Assembly: GCF_910596095.1 (NCBI RefSeq)
Contig: NC_056535.1
Coordinates: 20,166,505 to 20,230,504 of the forward strand
Source of the DNA: Thunnus maccoyii
Taxonomy: Eukaryota; Chordata; Actinopteri; Scombriformes; Scombridae
Reading direction: 5' to 3'
DNA length: 64,000 bases
Under the pieces are notes generated by a model. The model saw only the letters and a program-made list of their open reading frames with translations. It was not told where the DNA came from and searched no databases. How positions within the stretch are numbered: the stretch's first letter is position 1; the number at the start of each line of letters is the position of its first letter. Of this stretch, positions 48,318 to 64,000 are shown one piece after another. Made by a program: the position numbers and the translations under genes.

Positions 48318-49605
48318 GTGGGTTTAATTCATCATGAACACTTCAGCTGCTGCAGAGTTGGGATATAAAGTTATCAGAATCTGACATACTGAGTAAAATA
48401 TTGGTTTTCTTCTGAAGTTATTTGACTTTGACTCTTCTGTGATTGCTAACAGCCCAAAGCTCTGATCTTGGTGTCTCTTGCCTTTCCTCTAGTTAGCTGT
48501 CCCACAACACCACCTGCTGGTCATGAGCCTAAAAACAAATATCTATAATAAAAGTTGGTTATCTTCAGTGGTAGAAGTACTCATATCTCAAGTTAAGGTA
48601 TGGATGATCACTATTTTAGTGAAGGTCCTACATTCAAGATTTTACTTACATAAATGTTCAAAAGTATTTCATTACCAAATTAAGTGGTGTTTAGTTGAAA
48701 ACTAAAATCCCAACATACTGTTGTTACAATTTACATTAAAGACCTGCTCCAGACATATTTTTAGATGTAAAAATACTCTGCTTGGAATAATAATTTGTGT
48801 TTGTGTTTCCCTAAAATTAAATCTTCCCATTCTCCCTCACTGAAAGAACAGATGATCTATGAATATGCAAAACAATATTGTTTCAAAAGTTTAACTACTG
48901 GATGACTTGATGTCTCCCTCTTCTCTGTGAAGTCCATTCTCAGTGTTTGTGCACTGGAGGCTTCAAGTTTCCATACTTGCCACAGATATAAGTTGCATTT
49001 TGAACCGTGATTGTTATCCAAACTGGTAGTGATGTCACAAATTCATGCTCATCCAAAGACGAATTAAACTCAGTTTTAAGGTGAGCTGAATGTGAAAACA
49101 GCCTTTTAGTGTCAAAGTGAAGCTCAAACATCCAAGTGAAGTAACAATAAGTAAAACTTTATTTTCATTGAAAGTTTCAGACTGATTTCTGGAACTCAAA
49201 TAGTAACAAGATTTGACACATTTTTTTTCATTGAATAATTCATTCTTCATTTATTATAGTACATGCTATGAAAAGTAGAAATTAGTCTACAAGCTTTGTA
49301 AATTAGTGATTTGTTTTAAAAGAAAAGGTCAACAAACAACATTAATTCATATGAATTAGGAAAAAAACATAGAAGTATTCGATAAGAAAACACATTGGTC
49401 AAAGATTTGGAAATTTGCATTCACAGCAGACCACATGCCACAGAACGAGCCCCAGTCTACTTCTGGAGTGGTTCATTCAATCAATATCATTCAATCAAAT
49501 CAATCAATCAATAAATCAAGTTTATTTGTCATCATATAGGGTACAATCACAGTAATCTTTACACTTACAAAGATTTGAATGCTATTTATTGGACTAATAC
49601 TGTCA
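48318..49605 (-). repeat. Duplicated 3' flank of the hyaluronidase gene (block A)
   Basis: From 48,318 rightwards this sequence is repeated at 57,405-61,194 (interrupted there by a LINE), and its last 230 bp also at 53,668-53,928. Homology begins abruptly ('gggtttaattcat' against 'caggtttaattcat' at 57,405), so 48,318 is a duplication breakpoint. The minus-strand frames at 48,940-49,131 and 49,035-49,250 are kept in both copies, but they overlap each other in different frames and look like no known protein. The copies are recent, so conservation is not evidence of coding. Confidence 0.8.
49521..49590 (-). promoter_or_regulatory. Candidate polyadenylation signals of the intact hyaluronidase gene
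   Basis: On the minus strand AATAAA occurs at 49,590-49,585, 15 bases past the stop codon, and again at 49,526-49,521. The nearer one is also present behind the exon copies at 53,929 and 61,195. Which is used cannot be told from sequence. Confidence 0.4.
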
Positions 49606-49956
49606 TTAGACTTTCTGCGAGAAAAATGCTTTGCCCTTATTTAGCTTGGAGCAGCTCTCCCCACCCCACCCGGAGTAACACTTGCACTGAAACTGAGACT
49701 TCATGCGTGTTACGTCATTTGTCCTCATCTGCCCGAGCACCCTGTAGTGTGGTCCCCCTACTGGTTTCTTCTCAGTCACAACTGTCCACATGGCAGGATC
49801 GAGGTGGAGGTAGGTACTTGATGTTGGGTTCCTCCTCTCGCATCTTCCCTTTGAGGAACACAAGGTCTGACTGCAAAGAGCAGCTGCTGATGTTACATTA
49901 ACCAGGTAGGGACCCAGAGTCTGGTCGATGAAAGACTTGACAGCTTCACAAGAATC
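49606..49956 (-). CDS. Hyaluronidase coding exon 3 (EGF-like C-terminus), copy A
   Basis: Acceptor TTCTTCTCTCAG then GATTCTTGTGAA. It encodes residues 333-448: the last cysteine of the catalytic-domain disulphide, the NVTSAA...LCS linker and an EGF-like module (C360, C365, C371, C423, C425, C434). Compared with copies B and C it runs eight residues longer, because a small difference after 'CSK' removes the stop at which they end. Intron 2 (49,957-51,775) is 1.8 kb. Confidence 0.95.
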   Translation of the reverse strand, partial: DSCEAVKSFIDQTLGPYLVNVTSAAALCSQTLCSSKGRCERRNPTSSTYLHLDPAMWTVVTEKKPVGGPHYRVLGQMRTNDVTRMKSQFQCKCYSGWGGESCSKLNKGKAFFSQKV

Positions 49957-52870
49957 CTGAGAGAAGAAAAGAAACAGGGGACAGTAAACAGGTGATGCTC
50001 CAAAGCATTAGTGGACTCGGGGGGGCAAAAAAATACTGTGAAATTTCCCTCTAAGGTGCCAGCACAGTATAGCAAACATGATAAAATGCCCTCTAATGTG
50101 CCTGCATAAAGGAGAAAACATACCAATGTTATGTAATCGCTGTCTCAGTTATGGGTAAATCAGAATGAAGGGCCCTAGAGCGCCTCTATATGTGACAGTC
50201 TGGAATGAAGTGCCCTCATGGGTACACTTTTAGTAGATGAAAATGTGATAGTGCCCTGTAAAGTACCCCCCAAGATGTAATACAGCGCCCTATGAGTTGC
50301 CGTTGTAACAGGGTGAGTTGACAGTTCTGTATTGGTGCCCTTCTAGTGAACAAAAAAAGTGGAAAAGGTGCCATTTAGGGCTCCCCTAAGTCTAACATAC
50401 AGAAGTGCAGAATTGGGTGCCATTTCAATCAAAGAAAAAACATGATGAAGTGGATTCTAGGGTGTACTACTCACTAGTTTGCTCAGTCACACCCCCTTTA
50501 GATTGTTCTGTTGTCTTTGGGTCAGTGCAGCTGTAACCTTGATACTATGACATTTTGTGAGGTAGGTCACATAGCAAGGCAACTGAAATGAATCTATTAA
50601 TTAAATATTATTAAGGATGCATTACTAATGTTTGTAGACTGTATTTTCTAAATTGGTTTTATGTTTAGGCCTGTCCAAAGCTGTATGACATGCTAAACAA
50701 TGTGATAAATGGACAGTAGCTAGCGAGTTAGATATGTACTCAGTCATCTATATACTAAATATTTGGTACAAATATGATTGTCAAGCACCACTACAAACAA
50801 AGCACAAATCTTTGGAGTAAACATACTCACTGAAATCAAACTGAAGGGACGGAAAATAGGAACGATCTAAGAGCCTAATATGATTGATCCAATTTATTTT
50901 AGGATGCACATTATTTTATTTTTAAATGCAGCCCTTATTTTACTATTATTACTAAATTACTGCCTATTATTTATATCATCTGTGTATAATAGAATGTTTC
51001 TTTCATGTTGTTGGTGTATATACTCATTCACACCTCACACCAACTGTATTAATTTTTCTATGTGTTGAAGTAGCGGCCGGAGGCCAAGATATTGGCCTGT
51101 TCTTAACAGGCATGTTTTGAACGGTCACTGCACTAGTTATATAAAAAAGAGCAATGGTGAGATGTCATGTGACTCACTTTACAGCATGTGAGAAAAGCAC
51201 ATTTAGTCTAAATGTCTAATTCTGAGAGGTTCAGTGTGAGCAATTAAAACACATTACACAATTATTCTCCAAATGTTTTTGGCTATCTTGCCTTCATCTA
51301 GTTGGTGTCTGTGACATGTGACTGATATATCACTATAGATAATAAGTACACAAAACAATATTATTGTCTGCTTTCTGAGTACTTTTCACAAAATACAGTT
51401 TTTTATCTAAAGAAATTTTAAAGAGGAATATGAAGGACTTTACAATACAACCAACTTTTTAAAAGGCTCAAGCACAGTATATTTAAATGTCTTCCATCTC
51501 TTCATACTTCATACTCTTCATACACTAATTTCCAAAAATCGTCAGCATCATTTAGTGCAAAATTCCTGGTGTACTGCAGTTGTGCAATGTGTTTTAATTC
51601 TGAAACTTTTTGTATGACTTTTATCTACAGTATGACAGTTTCTAAAGTTTTCACACTGCTGTGTAGGGAGATTTCAGTATCAAATGATACTGTGTGCATG
51701 GTTGCTGTATTAGAGCAAAAAAATTATCAGATCATCTTAAGAGTTAATGAGTCAGAGTTGTTATTATTGGTGTACCTTAGATTCCGAGTAGGTGCTGTCG
51801 CCCCAGAGCACTATCCCTGCAGTCCCTAAAGCAGCACTCTCTCCGATGGTGTATTCCAGGTGCTCCTGCAGGAGGGAAAAACAAGAGGTAAGCAGAAGAT
51901 TCAAACAAATCCATGACAATCCAATAACTGCCTGGAGTTAAAAAAAAAAACTTGTGCTTCTTGCCTGAGAGAGGAAATCTAGTGAATAGGTGTAAACAAA
52001 GCGAGAGTATGGGAAAATAGGTGGTGTTGATTGAGTTGCCTTAGCCGCTACTCTCTTGGCCTCCAGGATGCGATGTTGAGTGTAGAGGAGCACATCTTTG
52101 CCAAGGCCACTCAGCTTGAGGCTGAGGTAGATATCAGGATACAGAGCTGAGGAGGTGTCCCACAGCCAGAACAGCTCATCATTCCTCTTCAGCTCTATAG
52201 GTGGACACTCTCCTGTGTATTTTGTGCTTTGGTCATAGTGGTTGTAGCAGTTGGGAAAACCATAGAAACCCCACAACCCATTTGGCCTTTCCTTCTGCCC
52301 CAGCTTCAGAGTTTCCTCCATGATTTTCCTCCCTGCCTCCTCAAACTCTACCCGGGCTGCAGCTTCTATCTGTGCAGGACTCCAGTCTGGGTGCTTGGCC
52401 CTTACTAGTTCTTCCGATCCCTCCTTGTACACCTTCATACCGGACCAGTTTCTCTCCCACACAGGTCTCCAGCTCTCCCAGTCCACTACAGCAAGGCCAT
52501 GGAAATCCCTGTCAGGGATATCTGTCTGGATATCGATAGAGGCAGCTCTAAGATGCTTGGCAAGACTGGCGTTCTGTGGCACCCCACCATTAATAGCCAC
52601 CCCTTGGCTATTGTACTTGGGATACAGACCAAGCTTGTTTTCGTAAAAGAGCGTTATTTTTTCACCCATAAAGATTTGATTTTGGTTCTGAATGATGCTA
52701 AATGTTCCCAAGTTGAGGTCCACACCATATTTAGAGAGGCAGTGGGCACTAGGGGCATTCCACACACTGAAGAAAGGCAACTTGGAAATTGGTGATGCTG
52801 CTTCCTGCAGGCCTGAAACAAGGCTGATCGTATTTAAGAACAGCAGCAAGCCGGGATGAAAGAAAGCCAT
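49606..52870 (-). CDS. Hyaluronidase (GH56), intact 448-aa gene, three coding exons
   Basis: Coding segments on the minus strand are 52,870-51,965, 51,865-51,776 and 49,956-49,606: 906 + 90 + 351 bp, all joined in phase 0, giving 448 aa. Hyaluronidases cleave the beta-1,4 links of hyaluronan. What I see: signal peptide (residues 1-20), a GH56 catalytic domain with D130 and E132 in a DxE motif, Y203, Y248, R267 and W323 at the positions of the substrate-site residues of HYAL1, cysteines C44/C335 and C208/C222, then an EGF-like module with C360, C365, C371, C423, C425, C434. N-glycosylation sequons are at N100, N141 and N352. There is no hydrophobic tail after the EGF module, so the product should be secreted, not GPI-anchored. 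The start is set by a splice acceptor two bases before the ATG. Length and the 90-bp middle exon match the vertebrate HYAL/SPAM1 family. The exact orthologue (hyal4/spam1/hyal6-like) is not decidable here. Confidence 0.96.
50056..50110. repeat. Single 42-bp minisatellite unit in intron 2
   Basis: One unit (GTGCCAGCACAGTATAGCAA...) lies about 100 bp from exon 3. The equivalent place in copies B and C has two units. Confidence 0.7.
50780..51128. other. Segment of intron 2 unique to block A
   Basis: Blocks B and C share 'gtagtaaacccttaaaagtaaatcagag' after the 'ctaaatatttgg' motif, while block A has an unrelated AT-rich 350-bp sequence. Homology to block C resumes at about 51,129 ('tatataaaaaagagca'). 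It is an insertion in A or a replacement. No element type is recognised. Confidence 0.55.
51129..51420. repeat. Intron 2 segment shared with 63,308-63,830
   Basis: The run 'ccaaatgtttttggctatct' through 'gatatatcactatagat' is nearly identical at 63,717-63,787, with looser homology leftward. This shows that block C continues through intron 2 and that its missing exon 2 should lie further right. Confidence 0.8.
51776..51865 (-). CDS. Hyaluronidase coding exon 2 (90 bp)
   Basis: Acceptor CCCTCCTGCAG, donor AAG/GTACAC. It encodes 30 residues beginning EHLEYTIGESAALG and containing the LWGD segment whose W aligns with W321 of HYAL1. A 90-bp phase-0 exon at this place is the usual arrangement in vertebrate hyaluronidase genes. 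It is too short to be seen as an independent ATG-started frame. Confidence 0.93.
51866..51964 (-). other. 99-bp intron with a GC-AG boundary
   Basis: The 5' boundary is CAG/GCAAGA and the 3' boundary TCCTGCAG. A GC donor with a strong CAG before it and AAG after it is the accepted form of the rare GC-AG intron class. The alternative of reading through gives a stop eight codons later and loses the EGF module, so the splice is required for a complete enzyme. Confidence 0.85.
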
Positions 52871-52872
52871 CC
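51965..52872 (-). CDS. Hyaluronidase coding exon 1 (signal peptide and most of the catalytic domain)
   Basis: The exon starts after a good acceptor (TTCCTTCTTTGCAG), with only GG before the ATG at 52,870-52,868, and encodes residues 1-302. It ends CTCTCAG followed by GCAAGA, a GC donor and not GT. The reading frame would run on for eight codons into the intron before stopping. Joining to the next exon restores the family sequence FLSQ-EHLEYTIGE. The catalytic DxE pair, Y203, Y248 and R267 are all here. Confidence 0.95.
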
Positions 52873-53229
52873 CTGCAAAGAAGGAAAGACAGCACAGCTT
52901 ATATCACTGCTGATATCACTGAATTACGGTGTTGTGAAACTTTGAGATGATATTGCAAAATTGTGCTGTGCATTTAAGATTTTTTAAAGTTGTGAGGCAA
53001 CTAGAGTATCAAAAAACAAAATTCAAAGCAAATCAGGTCGACTTTCAGAATGTGTAAGACTTTTGACCTAATATTCTGTTTTCTTCATCTATTAAACCTG
53101 CAAAATTTTCTAGTTAACCACAAATGTTGTGGTGTGGCTATACTGGAATAAAGTTATATGTTATAATGTAATATAGTGTGTAAAAAGGAAAGTGCAAATG
53201 GCTTTTAGACAAAATCATAAACAACTTAC

Positions 53230-53385
53230 CGGACAACTGGATGAGGATTTTGCTTTGTGGTCTGAACTTGTAGGAAAACAGCCAGTAGTCTCCTGAAAAC
53301 AGAAGTGCGCTCTGGGATTTCCAACACTCAATAAGAAGTGCATGCAGGTTTTCCAGCAACCAATTAGATGTGCCGACAGGATTTT
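53230..53385 (-). promoter_or_regulatory. Probable non-coding first exon and promoter of the intact hyaluronidase gene
   Basis: A donor CCG/GTAAGT ends an exon at 53,230. The next acceptor is the one just before the start codon, giving a 357-bp 5'-UTR intron (52,873-53,229). The exon start is unknown. Upstream on the minus strand are an ATTGG (inverted CCAAT) near 53,370 and a TTATTGAG near 53,333, but no convincing TATA box. About 40 bp of this flank (53,346-53,386) recurs at 56,061-56,105. In gene A it is then cut off by the minisatellite. Confidence 0.6.
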
Positions 53386-53389
53386 TAAG

Positions 53390-53650
53390 GTGCCAGCACA
53401 ATAGAGCAAACATGATAAGATGCCCTCTAAGGTGCCAGCACAATAGAGCAAACATGATAAGATGCCCTCTAAGGTGCCAGCACAGTAGAGCAAACATGAT
53501 AAGATGCCCTCTAAGGTGCCAGCACAGTAGAGCAAACATGATAAGATGCCCTCTAAGGTGCCCACATAGTAGAGCAAACATGATAAAATGCCACCTAAGG
53601 TGCCCCCACAGTACAGCAAACATGATAAAATGCCGTCTAATGTGCCCACA
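53390..53650. repeat. 42-bp minisatellite, six units, beside the hyaluronidase promoter
   Basis: Units start at 53,390, 53,432, 53,474, 53,516, 53,558 and 53,600 with a partial seventh at 53,642. The first four are almost identical; the last two are diverged. Because 42 is a multiple of three, all frames stay open and give apparent 110-160-aa proteins made of 14-residue repeats. These are artefacts. The same unit occurs once or twice in intron 2 of blocks A, B and C. Confidence 0.93.
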
Positions 53651-53780
53651 TTCGATATTCTATAATCTATTCATTCTATTCGATAAGAAAATACATTGGT
53701 CAAATATTTGAAAATTTGCATTCACAGCAGACCACATGCCACAGAACGAGCCCCAGTCTACTTCTGTAGTGGTTCATTCT

Positions 53781-53782
53781 TT

Positions 53783-53822
<40 letters not shown>
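53781..53822. repeat. (AATC)n microsatellite in the 3' flank of copy B
   Basis: Ten uninterrupted TCAA/AATC units. The equivalent sites at 49,486-49,518 and 61,056-61,090 are shorter or interrupted. Confidence 0.9.
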
Positions 53823-53824
<2 letters not shown>

Positions 53825-53928
53825 GTTTATGAAGTACAATCACAGTGAACACTTACACTTACAAATACTTGAATGCTATTTATTGGACTAATACTGTCAT
53901 TAGATTTTCCCCTGTGAGAAAAAATCTT

Positions 53929-54255
53929 TTATCCCTTTTTCGGCTTGGAGCAGCTCTCCCCACACCACCCGGAGTAACACTTGCACTGAAACTGAGACTT
54001 CATGCGTGTTACGTCATTTGTCCTCATCTGCCCGAGCACCCTGTAGTGTGGTCCCCCTACTGGTTTCTTCTCAGTCACCACCTTCCACACATCAAGGTCG
54101 AGGTGGAGGGAAGTCCTTGATGTTGGGTTCCTCCTCCCGCATCTTCCCTTTGAGGAACACAAAGCCTGACTGCAAAGAGCAGCTGCTGATGTTACATTCA
54201 CCAGGTAGGGACCCAGAGTCTGGTCGATGTAAGACTTGACAACTTCACAAGTAGC
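53929..54255 (-). pseudogene. Orphan hyaluronidase exon 3, copy B
   Basis: Acceptor TTTTCTCAG at the right, stop TAA at 53,931-53,929. The 108 codons are open and match copy A exon 3 apart from scattered substitutions (ATCEVVKSY for DSCEAVKSF at the start). It carries an extra cysteine (GWCGESC for GWGGESC) from one G-to-T change in the EGF module, which would disturb disulphide pairing. It ends after SKPKKG. No exon 1 or 2 lies to its right before exon D, so it has no gene of its own. Use as an alternative last exon of an upstream gene is conceivable but unsupported. Confidence 0.85.
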
Positions 54256-54351
54256 CTGAGAAAAGAAAAGAAACAGGGGACAGTAAACAGGTGATGCTTC
54301 AAAGCATTAGTGGACTTGAGGGACAAAAATATACCATGAAAGTGCCCTCTA

Positions 54352-54441
54352 AGGTGCCAGCACAGTACAGCAAACATGATAAAATGCCCTCTAAGGTGCC
54401 AGCACAGTACAGCAAACATGATAAAATGCCATCTAATGTGC
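54352..54441. repeat. Two 42-bp minisatellite units in block B
   Basis: Two tandem copies of the GTGCCAGCACAGTACAGCAA unit, at the same position relative to exon 3 as in blocks A and C. Confidence 0.8.
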
Positions 54442-54827
54442 CCGCATAAAGGAGAAAACATACCAATGTTATGTAATTGCTGTCTCAGTTATGGGTAAAT
54501 CAGGATGAAGGGCCCTAGAGCACCTCTATATGTGACAGTCTGGACTGAAGTGCCCTCGTGGGTACACTTTTAGTAGATGAAAATGTGATAGTGCCCTGTA
54601 AAGTACCCCCCAAGATGTAATGGAGTGCCCTATGAGTTGCCGTTGTAACAGGGTGAGTTGACGGCTCTGTATTGGTGCCCTTCTAGTGAACAAAAAAAGT
54701 GGAAAAGGTGCCATTTAGGGTTCCCCTATGTCTAACATACAGAAGTGCAGAATTGGGTGCCATTTCAATCAAAGAAAAAACATGGTGAAGTGCCCTCTAG
54801 GTTGCACAGTATTGGAGAAAAACAAGC

Positions 54828-55643
54828 GGGTAGCTCCCAGTCTGAGAAGTGAAGCCAATGCGAAAGTGCCTTAAACCTGCATTCTCTCTAATGGCCAAAG
54901 GGGGGCAACTCCACTGGTTGCAAAAGGAAGTCTGATTGTATGGAAGTCTATGAGAAAATGACCTTACTTATCACTTGATTTATTACCTCATTAAACACTT
55001 TCCTAATGAGTTTATGGTCGCAAACGCTAGTCTCAAGTCTTCTTCAATACAGCATGATGTTCATTTTGTAAATTATGGTCCCATTTAGAGTAAAATAGAT
55101 GATAAAGTAAGGTATGCTTTATGGCGTGGCTACCTTGTGATTGACAAGCCGCTACCACTAAGACAATGTTGATAATGTAACATAACCATAGCATAACCCC
55201 AGATTCGCAGAGTATAGGCATAGCTGCCACTATTTCACAGTGTGTTTTCAGTTCATGAAAGTTAATTGTAACATTTTGGTCGCCTAAAAAAAGTCTTGTT
55301 GAGTGTTTGGTTGTGATAAAAGACCCTCTAAGGAATCGGCTGTTCCGTTTTTCCAGAAAGTACATTTAGTTTCAATGGTTTTAGGCCTGTTTTTCACTAG
55401 CAGAAATTAGCATTAGCATTGTCACAGTTAACCATAGGCTGTAAATGCACCGTGCTAACCAAGCTAGCAGCTAGCACCAGGGTCAGCTCCACCCTCTCAT
55501 CCAAATATGGTCACTTCTGGCTCCAAAAATCAAAGATGGCGAAAGTCAAATTGCTAAACTGAAGGCTTCAAAACAGCGGTCCACAAACCAATGGGTGACA
55601 CCACGGTGACTACATCCATATTTTTAGATATGGACGTCTATGG
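54828..55643 (+). mobile_element. R1 repeat, copy 4, inserted in block B only
   Basis: Full-length match to 29,727-30,548. In blocks A and C the flanking 'aaaaacatg.tgaagtg' runs straight into 'ctagggtgtactactcact'. In B that phrase is present on both sides of R1 (54,776 and 55,647), which is consistent with a duplicated target or a gene-conversion edge. The insertion therefore postdates the split of B from A and C. Confidence 0.8.
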
Positions 55644-56061
55644 AGAAAAACATGGTGAAGTAACCTATAGGGTGTAATACTCACTAATGTGCTGAGTCAC
55701 GCCCCCTTTAGGTTGTTCTATTGTTTTTGGGTTAGTGTAGTCTAAGCTGTAACCTTGATGATATGACAGTGTGTGAGGTAGGTCGCATATGAAGGCTTTT
55801 TTGCAATTAAAAGGAGTCTATGGATTAAATATTATTAAGGATGCATTACTAATGCATGTAGACCGTATTTTCTAAATCGGTTTTATGTTTAGGCCTGTCC
55901 AAAGCTGTATAACACGCTGAACAATGTGCTAGATGGATAGTAGCTAGCTAGATAGCTAGTTAGATATGTACGTAGTCATCTCTATACTAAATATTTGGTA
56001 CAAACTGTAAATCAAATTTGTGGTGTAGTAAACCCTTAAAAGTAAATCAGAGTATTCTTCT

Positions 56062-56105
56062 AGGTTTTCCAGCAACCAGTTAGATGTGCCCACAGAATTT
56101 CTAAA
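56062..56105 (-). promoter_or_regulatory. Relic of the hyaluronidase promoter flank
   Basis: 'aggttttccagcaacca.ttagatgtgcc' matches 53,346-53,375. To the right the sequence continues into unduplicated DNA and then exon D. This is probably the ancestral upstream flank that gene A itself has lost to the minisatellite. Confidence 0.7.
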
Positions 56106-57178
56106 AATCAATCATGAGAGACATGCAGATCATTTTATGGAGGAGTCAGAAAATCACAGGCAAGTTAAAACCTCATTCACTCATACTATATTTCACTAAC
56201 AGTTTATTTTTAGTAAAATATGTAAATATAAAGGAAGGTTAAAGAGTTTGAGCAAACTTGACCTGGAAAAACTGAGTAGCCTTTACAGCTCTACTCTGAA
56301 TGACTGTCAAGCAAGCCATAATGAACTCTTCCTCCTCCAAATGTAAATGTATGCCTCCTTCAACTCTTAAAAGTAGTAAAAAATCACTCTTGGCTTAACA
56401 GCACCCAACAATTAAATGAGGAGGGGGGTATGAGGCTGGAGCCATGCAACATGTGTCCTTCCCTAGGACAAGCTGGCTTTGCTTCCCCTCAGTAGCCAAT
56501 GGTGACATGATTTCCCCTCCTCAGCTAAACTTTAATCATCTGCAAACAGCAAAACCATATTTGTGTAATCTTTTTGGTGTATCTCAAAAAGAGAAATACA
56601 CAAGGAGCTGAACAAAGACGTTTATTTACTTTGGCAATAGTCAGATTTGAGAAAACAGCACACAGAGTCAGTGAAATTGTGGAAGAAATCTGCTTCTTAC
56701 ATCGTTTGTGCTTCTGAAGTCAAATTGCCGCTGAAACATGAGGCTGTTATTTTTAGCAACACCTAAAAATACATTCAAATAAATAGTAATACTGTAATTG
56801 CCTCAATAAAAACATCTGATGTCAGAGAGAGGTCGTAGTGATGGCATTTTAAATATATTGTGCTATTACCAGAGCATCAAATCCCCTTTTAACACACAGC
56901 AACTGATACACATCCACTCATTCATCACATTTCCACCCAAAAAAACCTCTTCTCTGTGAGAAACAGGGAATATGACACCTTGAGAAACAGTGACTGATAG
57001 CACAGGGGAGCGGAAACTGAGAGCAAAATGTAAACAAGGTAATGTCCAGCAAAAAACAGATTAAAAAGTATGAACAAATATAACTTTGCAATTTCCACAG
57101 TGTTTGTTAAGGAAAAATAATTTAATATACTTTAAAGCAATTGAAAGATAAAACTCCAATTTCAGTATGTAAGATACA
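56106..57178 (-). other. 3' flank of exon D, no gene
   Basis: Unique AT-rich DNA. On the minus strand AATAAA at 56,626-56,621 is a plausible polyadenylation signal for exon D, giving a 3'-UTR of about 550 bp. No reading frame is supported. Confidence 0.45.
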
Positions 57179-57406
57179 CTAACAGAGGAGCAGAGAAACA
57201 ATCAGTAAGATCACACATTGCAGTATTGATGCCACGGCTTGAGATGCCGCCCCTCTTTGGTGCAGAGGGTCTGTCTGATCGCAGCCCTCTCCTTCATAGC
57301 CGCTGTAGCACTGGCACTGAAACTGGGTTTGAAAACTCATCTTCTCTGCTTCGCCAAGCTCACCGGTAACTGTCAGCTTGCCACCCTCACTGAGAACCAC
57401 ACAAGG
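57179..57406 (-). pseudogene. Truncated last exon of a GPI-anchored-type hyaluronidase (exon D)
   Basis: About 75 codons end in TAG at 57,181-57,179. They hold the end of the EGF-like module (FQCQCYSGYEGEGC), a linker, and a hydrophobic C-terminal segment (VASILQCVILLIVSLLLC) of the kind removed on GPI attachment in PH-20/SPAM1 and HYAL4. The sequence before the EGF end is lost: at about 57,405 it passes without a splice acceptor into the duplicated 3' flank of block C, and a stop lies at 57,409-57,407. It differs clearly from exons A, B and C, so it is a second paralogue broken by the duplication. An intact parent may lie beyond the window. Confidence 0.85.
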
Positions 57407-57536
57407 TCAGGTTTAATTCATTATGAGCACTTCAGCTGCTGCAGTGTTAGGTTGAATCATTCATTATCAGAATCTGACATACTGAGTCAAATATGGTGTT
57501 TCTTCTGCAGTTATTTGACACTTCTGTGGTTACTAG

Positions 57537-59994
57537 GGCAGAAAGGGGGATGGGGGGAGGGGGGCGAGGTGGTAGCCATATTTAAAGATTCACACCAGTG
57601 TCAGCAAGTGTCATTTGGTAATTTTATGTCTTTTGAATTCCTCTGCGCTCTCCTTAAATGCTCACCTTGCATTCCATTCTACTTGTAATTATTTAGACCG
57701 CCAAGACACAACATTTTTTCGAATAGCTGAGCAAACTCTTATCTGTGATTTGCACAGACTTTGATTTTCTCCTAATCGCTGGTGACTTCAACATCCACAT
57801 TGATAACCCAAAGGATAATTACGCTAATAAACTTACTACTTTTGGCCTATGTCAGTATGTGAAGGAGCCCACCCACTCTCAAGGACATACTCTGGACTTG
57901 ATCATCACTAAGGGTCTCCATATTTCAACACTGGTCAAGGACTTGACTCTATTGGATCATTTCTGTTTATTTTTCGACTTGTTTATTACATCCAATCCAC
58001 AAATCTGACAACAACCTGCGGTTGTAAAAAAAAAAAGGTAAAACCAAACTACATATACATTATAATATTTACAAAGACATGGTCCACTCTTACAACAATA
58101 CAATTTGCAAAGCAAGACAAACCTTTTTCTCCAGTATCATAAACAAAAATAAAAATAATGCTTGCACTTTATTTGCAACGGTAGAGAGACTGACAAATCC
58201 TACCCTGCAAATAGCTCCTGAATGTCCCTCAGCTGATAAGTGTGATGAATTTGCTTCCTTTTTTAACAATAAAATTGACAGTATCAGACTCGACATCAGC
58301 TCTTAGCTGAACCAAACCTTCATCTTCCCAACTACACCTTTAAGGAAACCAGTCCTGATATTAGAGTTCAGCCCCATCAACAGAGATTAGAAACAGTGCA
58401 GCACCTAAATTCATCCACTTGTTCTCTTGACAGTTTTCCCACTAACTTTTTAAAAAATGTTTTTAACTCCATAGAAACTGATAACCTTAACATAGTGAAT
58501 GCATCAATTCTGTCTGGCATCTTTCCCTCATCCTTGAAAACTGCAGTTGTCAAGCCCTTATTTTAAAAAAAGGCATCCTAGATACTTCTACCCTTAGGAA
58601 CTTCTGACCCATCTCAAACTTACCCTTTTACGCAAAATTATAGAGAAAGCAGTTGTTAATCAGCCAACACACTGCTCAATTTTAAATGACTATTTTGATC
58701 AATTTCAATCAGGCGTTTGTGCCAATCACCACACAGGGACGGCTCTTATAAAGGACTTTAATGATATTCATTTTAATAGTGATTCAGGCAAGACATCAGT
58801 TTTAGTTCTCTTAGACCTTAGTTCAGCCTTTGATACCATCGATCACAGAATACTTTTACATAGACTAGGAAACTGGGTTGTTTTTTCTGGAACAATCTTA
58901 AAATGAATGAAAACATACTTGGAGGGCAGGGATTATTTTGTCACTATTAGGAACCATAATTCAAAATGCACGCCCTTGCCCTGCGGGGTACCTCAAGGGT
59001 CAATTCTTGGCCTGCTTCTGTTTAACCTATACATGCTCCCACTTGGCCACATCCTTCAGAACAATAACCTTGTCTACTATAGTTATGCTGATGACACTCA
59101 GATTTACTTAGCTCTCTCATCACATGACTACAGTCCTATAGAGTCATTATGCAAATGCATCGTGCAAATAAATAACTAGATGTCTCAAAACGTCTTGCAA
59201 TTAAACAAAGAAAAAACAGGTAATTTTATTTGGCAGCAAAGATTAGAGGCGCAGGGTTGCTGCTCACTAGGCAGTAAGGCACTAAAATCAAAAGAGCAGA
59301 TTACGAACCTTTGTGTTTTAATTGGCTCCGACCTGAGTTTTAATAGTCATGTAAAAGCAATAACAAAATAAGCATTTTATCAACTTAAAAACAAAGCCAA
59401 AGTCAGGGACCTTATGTCAAAACAAGATTTGGAAACACTGATTCATGCTCATACTGCAATGGACTTCAGGCAGGACTTCCTAAAAAGACCATCAGGCAAC
59501 TGCAACTTGTTCAAAATTCAGCCGCAAGAGCCCTGACAAAAACCAAAAGACAGCCCAAATCATCAGCAGTTCTTAAATCTCTACACTGGTTGCCAGTAAG
59601 CCACAGAACTGATTTTTTAAATTCTTATTACTTCTTTATAAATCTCTACAGGGAGTAGGCCCTGAATACATGACTGATATACTTTAGCAATATAACCCTG
59701 CAAGACCTCTTAGATCATAAGGGAGTGGACTGTTAGTGGTGCTCATGGTAAAATCTAAACAAATCCAAACAATTCAGTCATTATGCAACACAGTGCTGGA
59801 ACCAACTGCCTGATGGTCTCAGGAACACCCAAACCCTCAAAGCTCTTAAATCCAGACTGAAAACCATATTATTCTCAAGCACTTTTAACTAAATATTTTT
59901 AAAACTCAAGGTCTTATTATTATTGTAGTTATTTTGTATTATTTTTAATCTTTTTATTTATCTATTATTCTTTGACTCTTTTATTGTATGTCTT

Positions 59995-60029
<35 letters not shown>

Positions 60030-60114
60030 CTTTTATTTTGCTTTGAATTGTGTTGCTTTAACTTCTCTGTAGAGCACCTTGAGTCTACCTCTGCGTATGA
60101 AATGCCTTGCCTGT
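57537..60114 (+). mobile_element. 5'-truncated L2/CR1-type LINE, inactive
   Basis: About 2.58 kb. It starts inside the apurinic endonuclease domain (FKDSHQCQQVSFGNF near 57,575, GDFNIHIDN near 57,782, GHTLDLIIT near 57,888, LLDHFCLFFD near 57,950) and runs through reverse transcriptase (LDLSSAFDTIDHRILLHRL near 58,812, GVPQGSILG near 58,987, YADD at 59,084-59,095) to a 3' tail with TATGAAATGCCTTGCCTG. Many stops and frameshifts break the frame, and a TA run lies at 60,000-60,026. It interrupts block C at the place matching 48,446 in block A, between 'gattgct' and 'aacagcc'. No clear target duplication is visible. Confidence 0.93.
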
Positions 60115-61055
60115 CAACGACTCAAAGCTCTGACCTTGGTGTCTTTTGCCTTTCCTCTAGTTAACTGTCCCACAACACCACCTGCTGGTCATGAACCAAA
60201 GAACAAATATCTATAATAAAAGTTTCAGTGTTGGAAGAAGTACTCTTAAGTAAAAGTATGGAATCCCACTATTCAAGTTAAAGTCCTACATTCAACATTT
60301 TGCCTAAATAAAAGTACAAAAGTATTTCATTACCAAATGAAGTGGTGTTTATTTGAAATATAAAATCCTAACATATTGTTGTTTTAAGTAAATCTTCCCA
60401 TTCTCCCTCACTGAAAGAAACAGATGATCTATGAATATGCAAAACAATTTTATTTCAAAAGTTTAACTACTGGATGACTTGATGTCTCCTTCTTCACTGT
60501 GAAGTCCATTCTCAGTGTTTGTGCACTGGAGGCTTCAAGTTTCCATACTTACCACACATATAAGTTGCATTTTGAACCGTGATTGTTATCCAAACTGGTT
60601 GTGATGTCACAAATTCATGCTCATCCAAAGACGAATTAAACTCAGTTTTAAGGTGAGCTGAATGTGAAAACAGCCTTCTAGTTTCAAAGTGAAGCTCAAA
60701 CATCCAAGTGAAGTTACAATAAGTAAAACTTTATTTTCATTGAAAGTTTCAGACTGATTTCTGGAACTCAAATAGTAACAAGATTTGACACATTTTTTTT
60801 CATTGAATAATTCATTCTTCATTTATTATAGTACATGCTATGAAAAGTAGAAATTAGTCTACAAGCTTTGTAAATTAGTGATTTGTTTTAAAAGAAAAGG
60901 TCAACAAACAACATTGATTCATATGAATTAGAAAAAAACATAGAAGTATTCGATAAGAAAACGCATTGGTCAAAGATTTGGAAATTTGCATTAACAGCAG
61001 ACCACATGCCACAGAACGAGCCCCAGTCTACTTCTGGAGTGGTTCATTCTTTAAT

Positions 61056-61090
61056 CAATCAATCAATTAATCAATCAATCAATCAATCAA
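61056..61090. repeat. (AATC)n microsatellite in the 3' flank of copy C
   Basis: Interrupted AATC/TCAA run at the place equivalent to 53,781-53,822. Confidence 0.85.
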
Positions 61091-61194
61091 GTTTATAAAG
61101 TACAATCACAGCGAACACTTACACTTACAAATACTTGAATGCTATTTATTGGACTAATACTGTCATTAGATTTTTTCCTGTGAGAAAAAATCTT

Positions 61195-61521
61195 TTATCC
61201 CTTTTTCGGCTTGGAACAGCTCTCCCCACCCCACCCGGAGTAACACTTGCACTGAAACTGAGACTTCATGTGTGTTAAGTCATTTGTCCTCATCTGCCCG
61301 AGCACCCTGTAGTGTGGTCCCCCTACTGGTTTCTTCTCAGTCACTACCTTCCACACATCAGGGTCGAGGTGGAGGGAGGTCCTTGATGTTGGGTTCCTCC
61401 TCTCGCATCTTCCCTTTGAGGAACATAAAGCCTGACTGCAAAGAGCAGCTGCTGATGTTACATTAACCAGGTAGGGACCCAGAGTCTGGTCGATGTAAGA
61501 CTTGACAACTTCACAAGTAGC
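61195..61521 (-). CDS. Hyaluronidase last exon, copy C (rest of gene outside window)
   Basis: Acceptor TTTTCTCAG at the right, 108 open codons, TAA at 61,197-61,195. It has all EGF cysteines in normal positions (GWGGESC) and ends after SKPKKG like copy B. Differences from A are mostly conservative (ATCEVVKSY start, NDLTHMKS for NDVTRMKS). Its intron 2 continues to at least 63,830 with no exon 2 before the edge, so exons 2 and 1 would have to lie further right. It may be part of a functional second gene or an orphan like copy B. Confidence 0.75.
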   Translation of the reverse strand, partial: ATCEVVKSYIDQTLGPYLVNVTSAAALCSQALCSSKGRCERRNPTSRTSLHLDPDVWKVVTEKKPVGGPHYRVLGQMRTNDLTHMKSQFQCKCYSGWGGESCSKPKKG

Positions 61522-61607
61522 CTGAGAAAAGAAAAGAAACAGGGGACAGTAAACAGGTGATGCTCCAAAGCATTAGTGGACTCGAGGGACAAAAATATAC
61601 CATGAAA

Positions 61608-61700
61608 GTGCCCTCTAAGGTGCCAGCACAGTACAGCAAACATGATAAAATGTCCTCTAAGGTGCCAGCACAGTACAGCAAACATGATAAAATGCCATCT
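61608..61700. repeat. Two 42-bp minisatellite units in block C
   Basis: Two tandem GTGCCAGCACAGTACAGCAA units at the same distance from exon 3 as in block B. Confidence 0.8.
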
Positions 61701-62443
61701 AATGTGCCCGCACAAAGGAGAAAACATACATGTTATGTAATCGCTGTCTCAGTTATGGGTAAATCAGGATGAAGGGCCCTAGAGCACCTCTATATGTGAC
61801 AATCTGGACTGAAGTGCCCTCATGGGTACCCTTTTAGTAGATGAAAATGTGATAGTGCCCTGTAAAGTACCCCCCAAGATGTAATACAGCGCCCTATGAG
61901 TTGCCGTTGTAACGGGATGAGCTGACAGTTCTGTGCAGGTGCCCTTCAAGTGAACAGGAAAAATTTGGGAAAGGTGCCATTTAGGGTTCCTCTAAGACTA
62001 ACATACAGAAGTGCAGAATTGGGTTCCCTTTCAATAACAGAAAAACATGGTGAAGTGCCCTCTAGGGTGTACTACTCACTAGTTTGCTCAGTCACACCCC
62101 CTTTAGATTGTTCTATTTTCTTTGGATCAGCGCAGCTGTAACCTTGATACTATGACATTTTGTGAGGTAGGTCACCTACCAAGATTTTTTTGCAATTAAA
62201 ACAAGTCTACGGGTTAAATATTATTAACGATACATTACTAATATATGTAGCCTGTATTTTCTAAATTGGTTTTATGTTTAGGACTGTCTAAAGCTGTATA
62301 ACATGCTAAACAATGTGCTAGATGGACAGTAGCTAGCTAGCTAGATATGTACTTAGTCATCTCTATACTAAATATTTGGAACAAACTGGGAATCAACCTT
62401 GTGATGTAGTAAACCCTTAAAAGTAAATCAGAGCATTCTTTTC

Positions 62444-63283
62444 TCAAAATGCATTTACAATCTTTTAGCTTGGATTTACTTGCTTTTGTAGAGAGGTAGA
62501 TTAGCATTTGGGTTACCCTATGATTACAGAATGCCAAGAAGAGAAAGAAAATTGAAGACTATACAAAGGGATCTGCAAAATGCAGCTAGAGGCAGCAAGG
62601 GGGGAGATGAGAGAGATAAGGGTAAGTTTGCATTAGCCATTAGCAATTAGATGGGATGCCCAGTAGAACTTAAACCTGTGCCTAGGCATGTTGAAAGGAC
62701 AAAACTCCTCAAAGTATATACTACATTGCCAGTGACAACTGCATCAGTTGACCGATCATTCTCCAAACTGAAGCTGATCAAGACCCAGCTTAGAAACAGA
62801 TGTGGAGAAGGAAAGCTCTCAGATCTTCTGCTGTTGTCCATTGGGAGGGACATCCCAACTGACCATAACAAGGTCATTAACATTTATAATCTCATGGCCA
62901 AAAGAATTCTCCTTTGATTTCACCAGTCTTGCTTCTTGCTTCCCCAACACTTCCTGCTTCCCTAACAAGACTGCTAAAAACAGCTAATTCTCAAAATGTT
63001 CATAGTTCCATGTTTTTACTACAGATGTGTTTAAGAGATACACATTTAAAACGTTACCCATTCCCTGTATTTTATTACAGAGATGTTTGCAAAATAAATG
63101 TTTAAAAAGTAAATCCTTTTTAATACAGAGGTGTTGTTTTCCTTATATTCAGTCTTAGTTGGGGATGTAGCCTTTTTACCAAACAAGGATCATTGTTCTC
63201 TGCTGATGGCGGCCCATTGAATGTATCAGATGTCCTTTATATTTTTTTGTCCCTTTCCCTCAGACAGTCAGAGTCCGCCACTG
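62444..63283 (+). mobile_element. Internally deleted hAT transposon remnant
   Basis: 62,651-62,917 encodes the hAT C-terminal dimerisation region: LPVTTASVDRSFSKLKLIKT, then LRNRCGEGKLSDLLLLSIGR. About 62,527-62,590 reads in another frame as a basic N-terminus (KKRKKIEDYTKGS) of the kind that starts these transposases, so the central part including the catalytic residues is deleted. The right end reverse-complemented begins CAGTGGCGGACTCTGAC, a hAT-type terminus. The matching left terminus is missing, so the left boundary is approximate. It lies within intron 2 of block C only. Confidence 0.85.
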
Positions 63284-63830
63284 CTCCAAAATGTAATATT
63301 GGTGATACCATTATATAAAAAGAGCAGTTTCTCAACAGGTGGGATATCATGTGACTTACTTCACAGCATGTGAAAAAAGTGCACTGAGTCTAATTAAACA
63401 TTTTTTTCTGGTCTAAGCAGTTTATCAGACATCAGAGGAGCCATCTGCAGAAAATCCATTTCGATTATTTGAAGGTGCATCACAAGAAGGAATATGATGA
63501 GTATGAGGATGTAGAAAACATTCAAATTAAGGGAAGTACTAGAAATATCCCTCCCACATTTAACTCCCTTGACATTTGCGTGGTATGAACTAAAGAAACA
63601 GGAAGTAATGGTAATGGTTTTGAAATATTTTTAAAAAAAAAAGTTTCTCTGAGGAAGGGCGTAATTCTGAGAATGCACTCAGCGAGATTCAGACCACACG
63701 TTGCACAATTCTTCTCCAAATGTTTTTGGCTATCTTGCCTTCATCTAATCAGTGTCTGTGACATGTGACTGATATATCACTATAGATAGTAAGTACACAG
63801 AACAAGATTATCATCCGCTTTTTGAGTAAC

Positions 63831-64000
63831 CTGACGCACCAGATGGTTTGTTACACGGAACCATCTGAGAAGTCGTCCTTGGAAACTGTTTGGAAAAGGG
63901 TAGGCACTTTCAAAAAAATACTTGGCAGGTGATTGGATGAATCATTTGTCTATCACTGTCTTACCTTGTGAATCCAGCCGCCTCACAAGGTAGCTTTTTG
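63831..64000. repeat. Repeat-like sequence at the right edge
   Basis: Homology to block A stops and a sequence with a short inverted motif (CCTTGTGA / TCACAAGG at 63,963-63,993) begins. It resembles a dispersed fish repeat and runs off the window. Confidence 0.35.

Follow-up and report, generated by a model that had tools for sequence, protein, structure and literature searches.

Genes at the locus

Three hyaluronidase genes, here called A, C and E, lie on the minus strand at a locus of Thunnus maccoyii and are all transcribed leftwards. The window, meaning the whole stretch of 64,000 nucleotides that was analysed, is C3:20166505-20230504, with window base 1 at C3:20166505 and positions above 64,000 continuing the window numbering. 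Inside it exon 3 occurs four times, always on the minus strand, at 49,606-49,956 (A), 53,929-54,255 (B), 57,179-57,393 (D) and 61,195-61,521 (C), together with a single exon 1 (52,870-51,965) and a single exon 2 (51,865-51,776), and these coordinates confirm the count given in a preliminary description of the same DNA. A GH56 family search of the fish's own genome (782,140,779 bases, 54 contigs) returned 28 exon-level matches and found GH56 exons to the right of position 64,000 as well. With the exons of A and E as queries, tblastn over a 90-kb stretch located exon 1 three times, exon 2 three times and exon 3 five times; three whole genes plus two fragments, B and D, explain this count.

Gene A has an exon 1 with a coding part of 302 codons that includes a DWE motif (matched by phmmer to the human HYAL1 structure 2pe4), an exon 2 of 90 bp with an AG acceptor and a GT donor, and an exon 3 whose coding part makes an EGF-like C-terminus. 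A probable promoter with a 5' UTR exon, read by eye from the bases alone, lies on the same strand at 53,230-53,388 and has a CCAAT-like ATTGG and the donor CCG/GTAAGT. Copy C of exon 3 closes a second intact gene, and the rightward search for exons 1 and 2 suggested in the preliminary description finds them on the minus strand outside the window, at 66,260-67,168 and 64,347-64,436 respectively. Whole genes thus occupy the sequence right of 64,000, where a lack of hyaluronidase exons had been named in advance as a reason to abandon the earlier reading, and the picture of a single intact gene plus three surplus last exons gives way to one in which C belongs to a second intact gene and gene E follows. 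Intron 1 opens with a GC donor (CAG/GCAAG) in both A (51,964) and C (66,259). Within intron 2 of gene C the stretch 62,440-63,311 is without a counterpart in A and, by eye, resembles a decayed piece of hAT-type transposase.

Spliced, A and C give uninterrupted proteins of 448 and 441 aa, each carrying a whole Glyco_hydro_56 domain (Pfam; 448.7 bits for A and 463.9 bits for C, profile positions 3-335 of 335) above the curated cut-off of 23.2 bits. Both contain VDWE, a DxE motif, and VVDWES of A aligns with VIDWEA of human HYAL1; the DxE pair is presumably the catalytic one in both proteins. Human HYAL1 was the best of the solved structures for A (417.7 bits, aligned over residues 30-436), with PH-20 at 362.9 bits, and in an exon-1 tree of 12 rows with a midpoint root A pairs with C (81/86) and with neither HYAL1 nor PH-20. 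It seems that A and C would each make a full hyaluronidase using its own last exon.

Gene E (68,914-71,661, minus strand) consists of exon 1 at 71,661-70,735, exon 2 at 70,150-70,061 and exon 3 at 69,306-68,914, which splice to an uninterrupted protein of 469 aa with a hydrophobic tail that by eye is of GPI type. Its exon 1 was the top match of the GH56 family search, at 408.2 bits. A relative of gene E (73% identity in exon 1) is found about 1.9 Mb off on the same chromosome, at G000:C3:18327465-18329757, and a second GH56 cluster at G000:C5:2277543-2347240 has five exon-1 places; in that cluster the gene at 2344240-2345124 has no [VI]D[WF]E motif in the aligned exon-1 piece, and the gene at 2327730 is matched over only part of exon 1.

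Vertebrate GH56 hyaluronidases (HYAL1 / PH-20 type) occur in tandem clusters. A and C resemble them in the GH56 domain with its DxE motif and in the arrangement of a large exon 1, a 90-bp exon 2 and an EGF-like last exon, as does the tandem order of A, C and E, whereas the duplicate pair A/C with two fragments and the GC donor in intron 1 of A and C set this locus apart. Among the titles and abstract openings searched, none described this locus. Outside the hyaluronidase copies a scan of nine open frames gave reverse transcriptase for two and no match for seven, so the cluster was not placed by its neighbours; in the window, scans for tRNA and Rfam families gave no matches.

Fragments and inserted repeats

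A and C are homologous in a series of collinear pieces, 48,321-53,388 against 57,410-67,701, to an extent far above chance, with 90% identity across 2,020 bp; the match of B to C, likewise far above chance, reaches 94.5% across 1,133 bp. At 63,828 the A-C homology breaks and at 63,993 it resumes, and it had seemed to end at 63,830 because a common SINE-like repeat (63,829-63,993, plus strand) is inserted there, in intron 2 of gene C. What had been taken for the right end of the duplication is accordingly the left end of this repeat. The insert is flanked by a direct repeat of 11 bp (63,818 and 63,994), a target duplication, gene A has the empty site, and all of the 40 copies scored out of 1,055 candidates in the fish's own genome match it at 89-100% (itself included). 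The left flank of copy C holds a LINE-like insertion with reverse-transcriptase pieces (57,536-60,122, plus strand). At the junction of A and B lies a 42-bp minisatellite of 6.2 copies (53,386-53,646, plus strand), and a related minisatellite stands in intron 2 of each of A, B and C.

Copy B (53,677-56,059, minus strand) comprises 3' flank, exon 3 and part of intron 2, in that order along its match to C (53,677-54,807 and 55,644-56,059), with 54,808-55,643 having no counterpart in A or C. Past its intron 2 the sequence jumps to a second copy of a promoter 43-mer (56,062-56,104, minus strand; the first copy is at 53,346-53,388 in gene A), by which the right edge of B is marked, and then runs on into the spacer and D. 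B lacks exons 1 and 2, the 5' UTR exon and the likely start site. Exon 3 itself is open and has its acceptor, the 35 bases before it are identical in B and C and differ by one base in A, and AATAAA stands about 50 bases beyond it. The tails encoded by B and C are of equal length and share the final residue; five amino acids differ, and three of the changes are B-only (E to G, P to L, and G to C, the last a new cysteine in the EGF-like region). Pfam matches of B alone all fell below cut-off, namely a scorpion-toxin family (18.1 against 27), Glyco_hydro_56 (16.7 against 23.2) and two EGF families, and are taken as chance or partial. Among the best genome candidates scored, the DNA of B exon 3 matched itself, C and A.

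Copy D (57,179-57,393, minus strand) comprises the last 70 codons of exon 3 of gene E, including the GPI-type tail, with 67 of 70 residues identical. D is a piece of the last exon of E and no version of that of A. The match extends beyond the exon, 56,758-57,393 corresponding to 68,398-69,128 at the end of gene E and 56,064-57,393 to 67,661-69,128. It stops at 57,393, where a 16-bp filler (57,394-57,409) forms the junction, and from 57,410 the sequence is that of the left flank of A (48,321 onwards). The edge of D looks like the junction of a tandem duplication whose right breakpoint fell inside the last exon of E, as read from these bases. Pfam gave D alone only EGF-type matches, all below cut-off. 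The earlier claim that the copies keep acceptors and open frames stands for A, B and C, each open to a stop; in D only the 70-codon end is open, the acceptor having been lost.

Divergence and selection among the copies

The similarity of the copies is patchy. In a multiple alignment of the blocks common to A, B and C the distances for A-B, A-C and B-C were 13.3, 12.4 and 4.1% in the 3' flank, 7.6, 7.3 and 3.1% in exon 3, 5.9, 7.9 and 6.7% in near intron 2, 12.8, 10.1 and 12.5% in far intron 2, and 9.8% for every pair in the promoter 43-mer (41 columns). Pairwise BLAST columns put the non-coding mismatch between A and C at 2.2% in 48,815-49,400, at 6.3% and 7.5% on the two sides of exon 3, at 7.6-12.4% in four blocks beyond 50,467 and at 11.8% at the left edge. 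The two methods disagree on the A-C 3' flank, with 12.4% by multiple alignment (49,376-49,605) and 6.3% by BLAST (49,401-49,605), because a simple repeat there can be aligned in several ways.

Between B and C, 20 of 591 non-coding sites mismatch in the exon-3 tract and 163 of 1,718 outside it (Fisher p 5.5e-7), and between A and C 63 of 1,282 in the tract and 201 of 1,801 outside (p 3.8e-10), in tests that treat sites as independent, use tract edges picked after the identity profile had been seen, have no outgroup and count twice a few columns at overlapping HSP ends. Gene conversion would account for this, having kept B and C alike in exon 3 and the 3' flank, and A and C alike downstream of exon 3; the patchiness might instead come from a local duplication of the 3' part at a later time. 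That the region of the EGF-like exon behaves differently, as was first claimed, is borne out, but multiplication as the cause is not, homogenisation being the likely one. That B is as a whole a recent copy of C was considered and rejected, given that its far intron 2 and promoter 43-mer lie 9.8-12.8% from A and C; its near intron 2 differs from them by 5.9-6.7%.

Outside the most similar tracts the non-coding difference is about 11% for A-C and 9.5% for B-C, and differences of roughly 9-11% mark the copies as paralogues.

For exon 3 the pairwise dN/dS values are 0.50 (A-B), 0.46 (A-C) and 0.28 (B-C, from 5 silent and 5 non-silent changes). Private changes of B and C taken together are 5 of 10 non-silent (p 0.13, on small numbers). 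The open exon 3 of B with its intact acceptor, its AATAAA and a dN/dS of 0.28 leaves room for some constraint. Against this, an exon of that kind stayed open in 81% (5 random changes) to 66% (10 random changes) of runs of a substitution-only simulation. In exon 1, A and C differ at 97 of 906 bases (10.7%), near the non-coding level of 201 of 1,801 (11.2%), and over the 302 codons there are 60 amino-acid and 21 silent changes (dN 0.105, dS 0.154). A simulated exon given 97 random substitutions stayed open in only 2.4% of cases, so A and C are both probably real genes, and their catalytic part is probably under relaxed or diversifying change.

Origin of the cluster

The locus is very probably a tandem cluster in which three GH56 genes (A, C and E) have intact frames and two fragments (B and D) are the ordinary leftovers of duplication, on the evidence of sequence comparison. 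The bases show two tandem copies of a unit that reaches from the left flank of A (48,321) to inside the last exon of E, which gives genes A and C and leaves D as a stub of that exon at the junction 57,393/57,410. B sits between two copies of one promoter 43-mer and may stem from a smaller duplication, exons 1 and 2 being lost afterwards, or from a template-switch insertion of a 3' segment; the minisatellite at its edge, resembling that of intron 2, would point to a replication- or recombination-based event. Both B and D are probably dead pieces. Introns and flanks were copied with them and the other exons are missing, which is how duplicated (unprocessed) pseudogene fragments are recognised, and with such fragments in tandem arrays they share breakpoints inside genes and patchy similarity; no substantive difference from these was seen, B happening to keep an open last exon. 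A decaying tandem array, one of the two readings first offered, suits B and D and does not suit C, the last exon of an intact gene. A retrocopy origin was rejected on the copied introns and flanks, and amplification of the exon alone was rejected on the presence of exons 1 and 2 of gene C right of the window and on the matches of B exon 3, confined among the best genome candidates scored to itself, C and A.

It is improbable that B serves instead as an alternative last exon for read-through transcripts of gene C, spliced over 10 kb from 64,347 to 54,255 and yielding a slightly different EGF-like tail. The kept acceptor and frame, and the B-C dN/dS of 0.28 on 10 changes, would suit such a use, but gene C meets its own last exon and AATAAA first, the tails of B and C have the same length and are only five residues apart, and the three B-only replacements come with no detectable constraint (3 of 5 B-only changes non-silent, p 0.45 against a neutral expectation that assumes two-thirds transitions, at low power).

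The other reading first offered, in which last exons were multiplied alone as a selected cassette of alternative C-termini, one of them of GPI type, is very hard to credit. The window alone gives a ratio of four exons 3 to one each of exons 1 and 2, and in D the GPI-type tail is open, with a single AG in phase at 57,386. Once the right side is included, there are five exons 3 to three exons 1 and three exons 2, as three genes and two fragments would give. Such a cassette would need an acceptor in the right phase in every copy, and D is without both the acceptor of its source exon and that exon's first 60 codons. The best acceptor-like sequence at its edge, GGTTCTCAG, leads at once to a TGA after the phase-0 exon 2. 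Eight AGs stand in the register of the D tail across the 318 bases scanned upstream, and seven of them run into stops; the one that remains, at 57,386, four bases past the AG of the best acceptor-like sequence, is in phase and open but weak, with a pyrimidine tract that by eye is broken. On acceptor and phase grounds D is unlikely to serve as a GPI-type tail. For C the idea of an alternative C-terminus fails, C serving its own gene, and for B, as for D, it is unlikely. The junctions proposed from 51,776 to 54,255 or 61,521 would moreover run backwards, since both acceptors are upstream of A on the minus strand.

An assembly artefact of uncollapsed haplotypes or misjoined copies, for which blocks as similar as 94.5% across 1.1 kb might speak, is scarcely believable beside a non-coding mismatch outside the tracts of 11% (A-C) and 9.5% (B-C) that suits old paralogues, insertions peculiar to each copy and a precise breakpoint junction.

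Implications

The first picture of the locus was shaped by the edge of the window, beyond which the gene that ends in the lone last exon C is complete. In annotation C should be labelled an intact gene, and B and D gene fragments. How fast amino acids have changed from A to C in the catalytic exon is a point that hyaluronidase specialists might take up. It is conceivable, although unlikely, that B has been kept as a conversion partner that passes changes on to the neighbouring exons 3, with rapid divergence of the catalytic exon in A and C; if so, the cluster would hold a shared tail and vary the enzyme.
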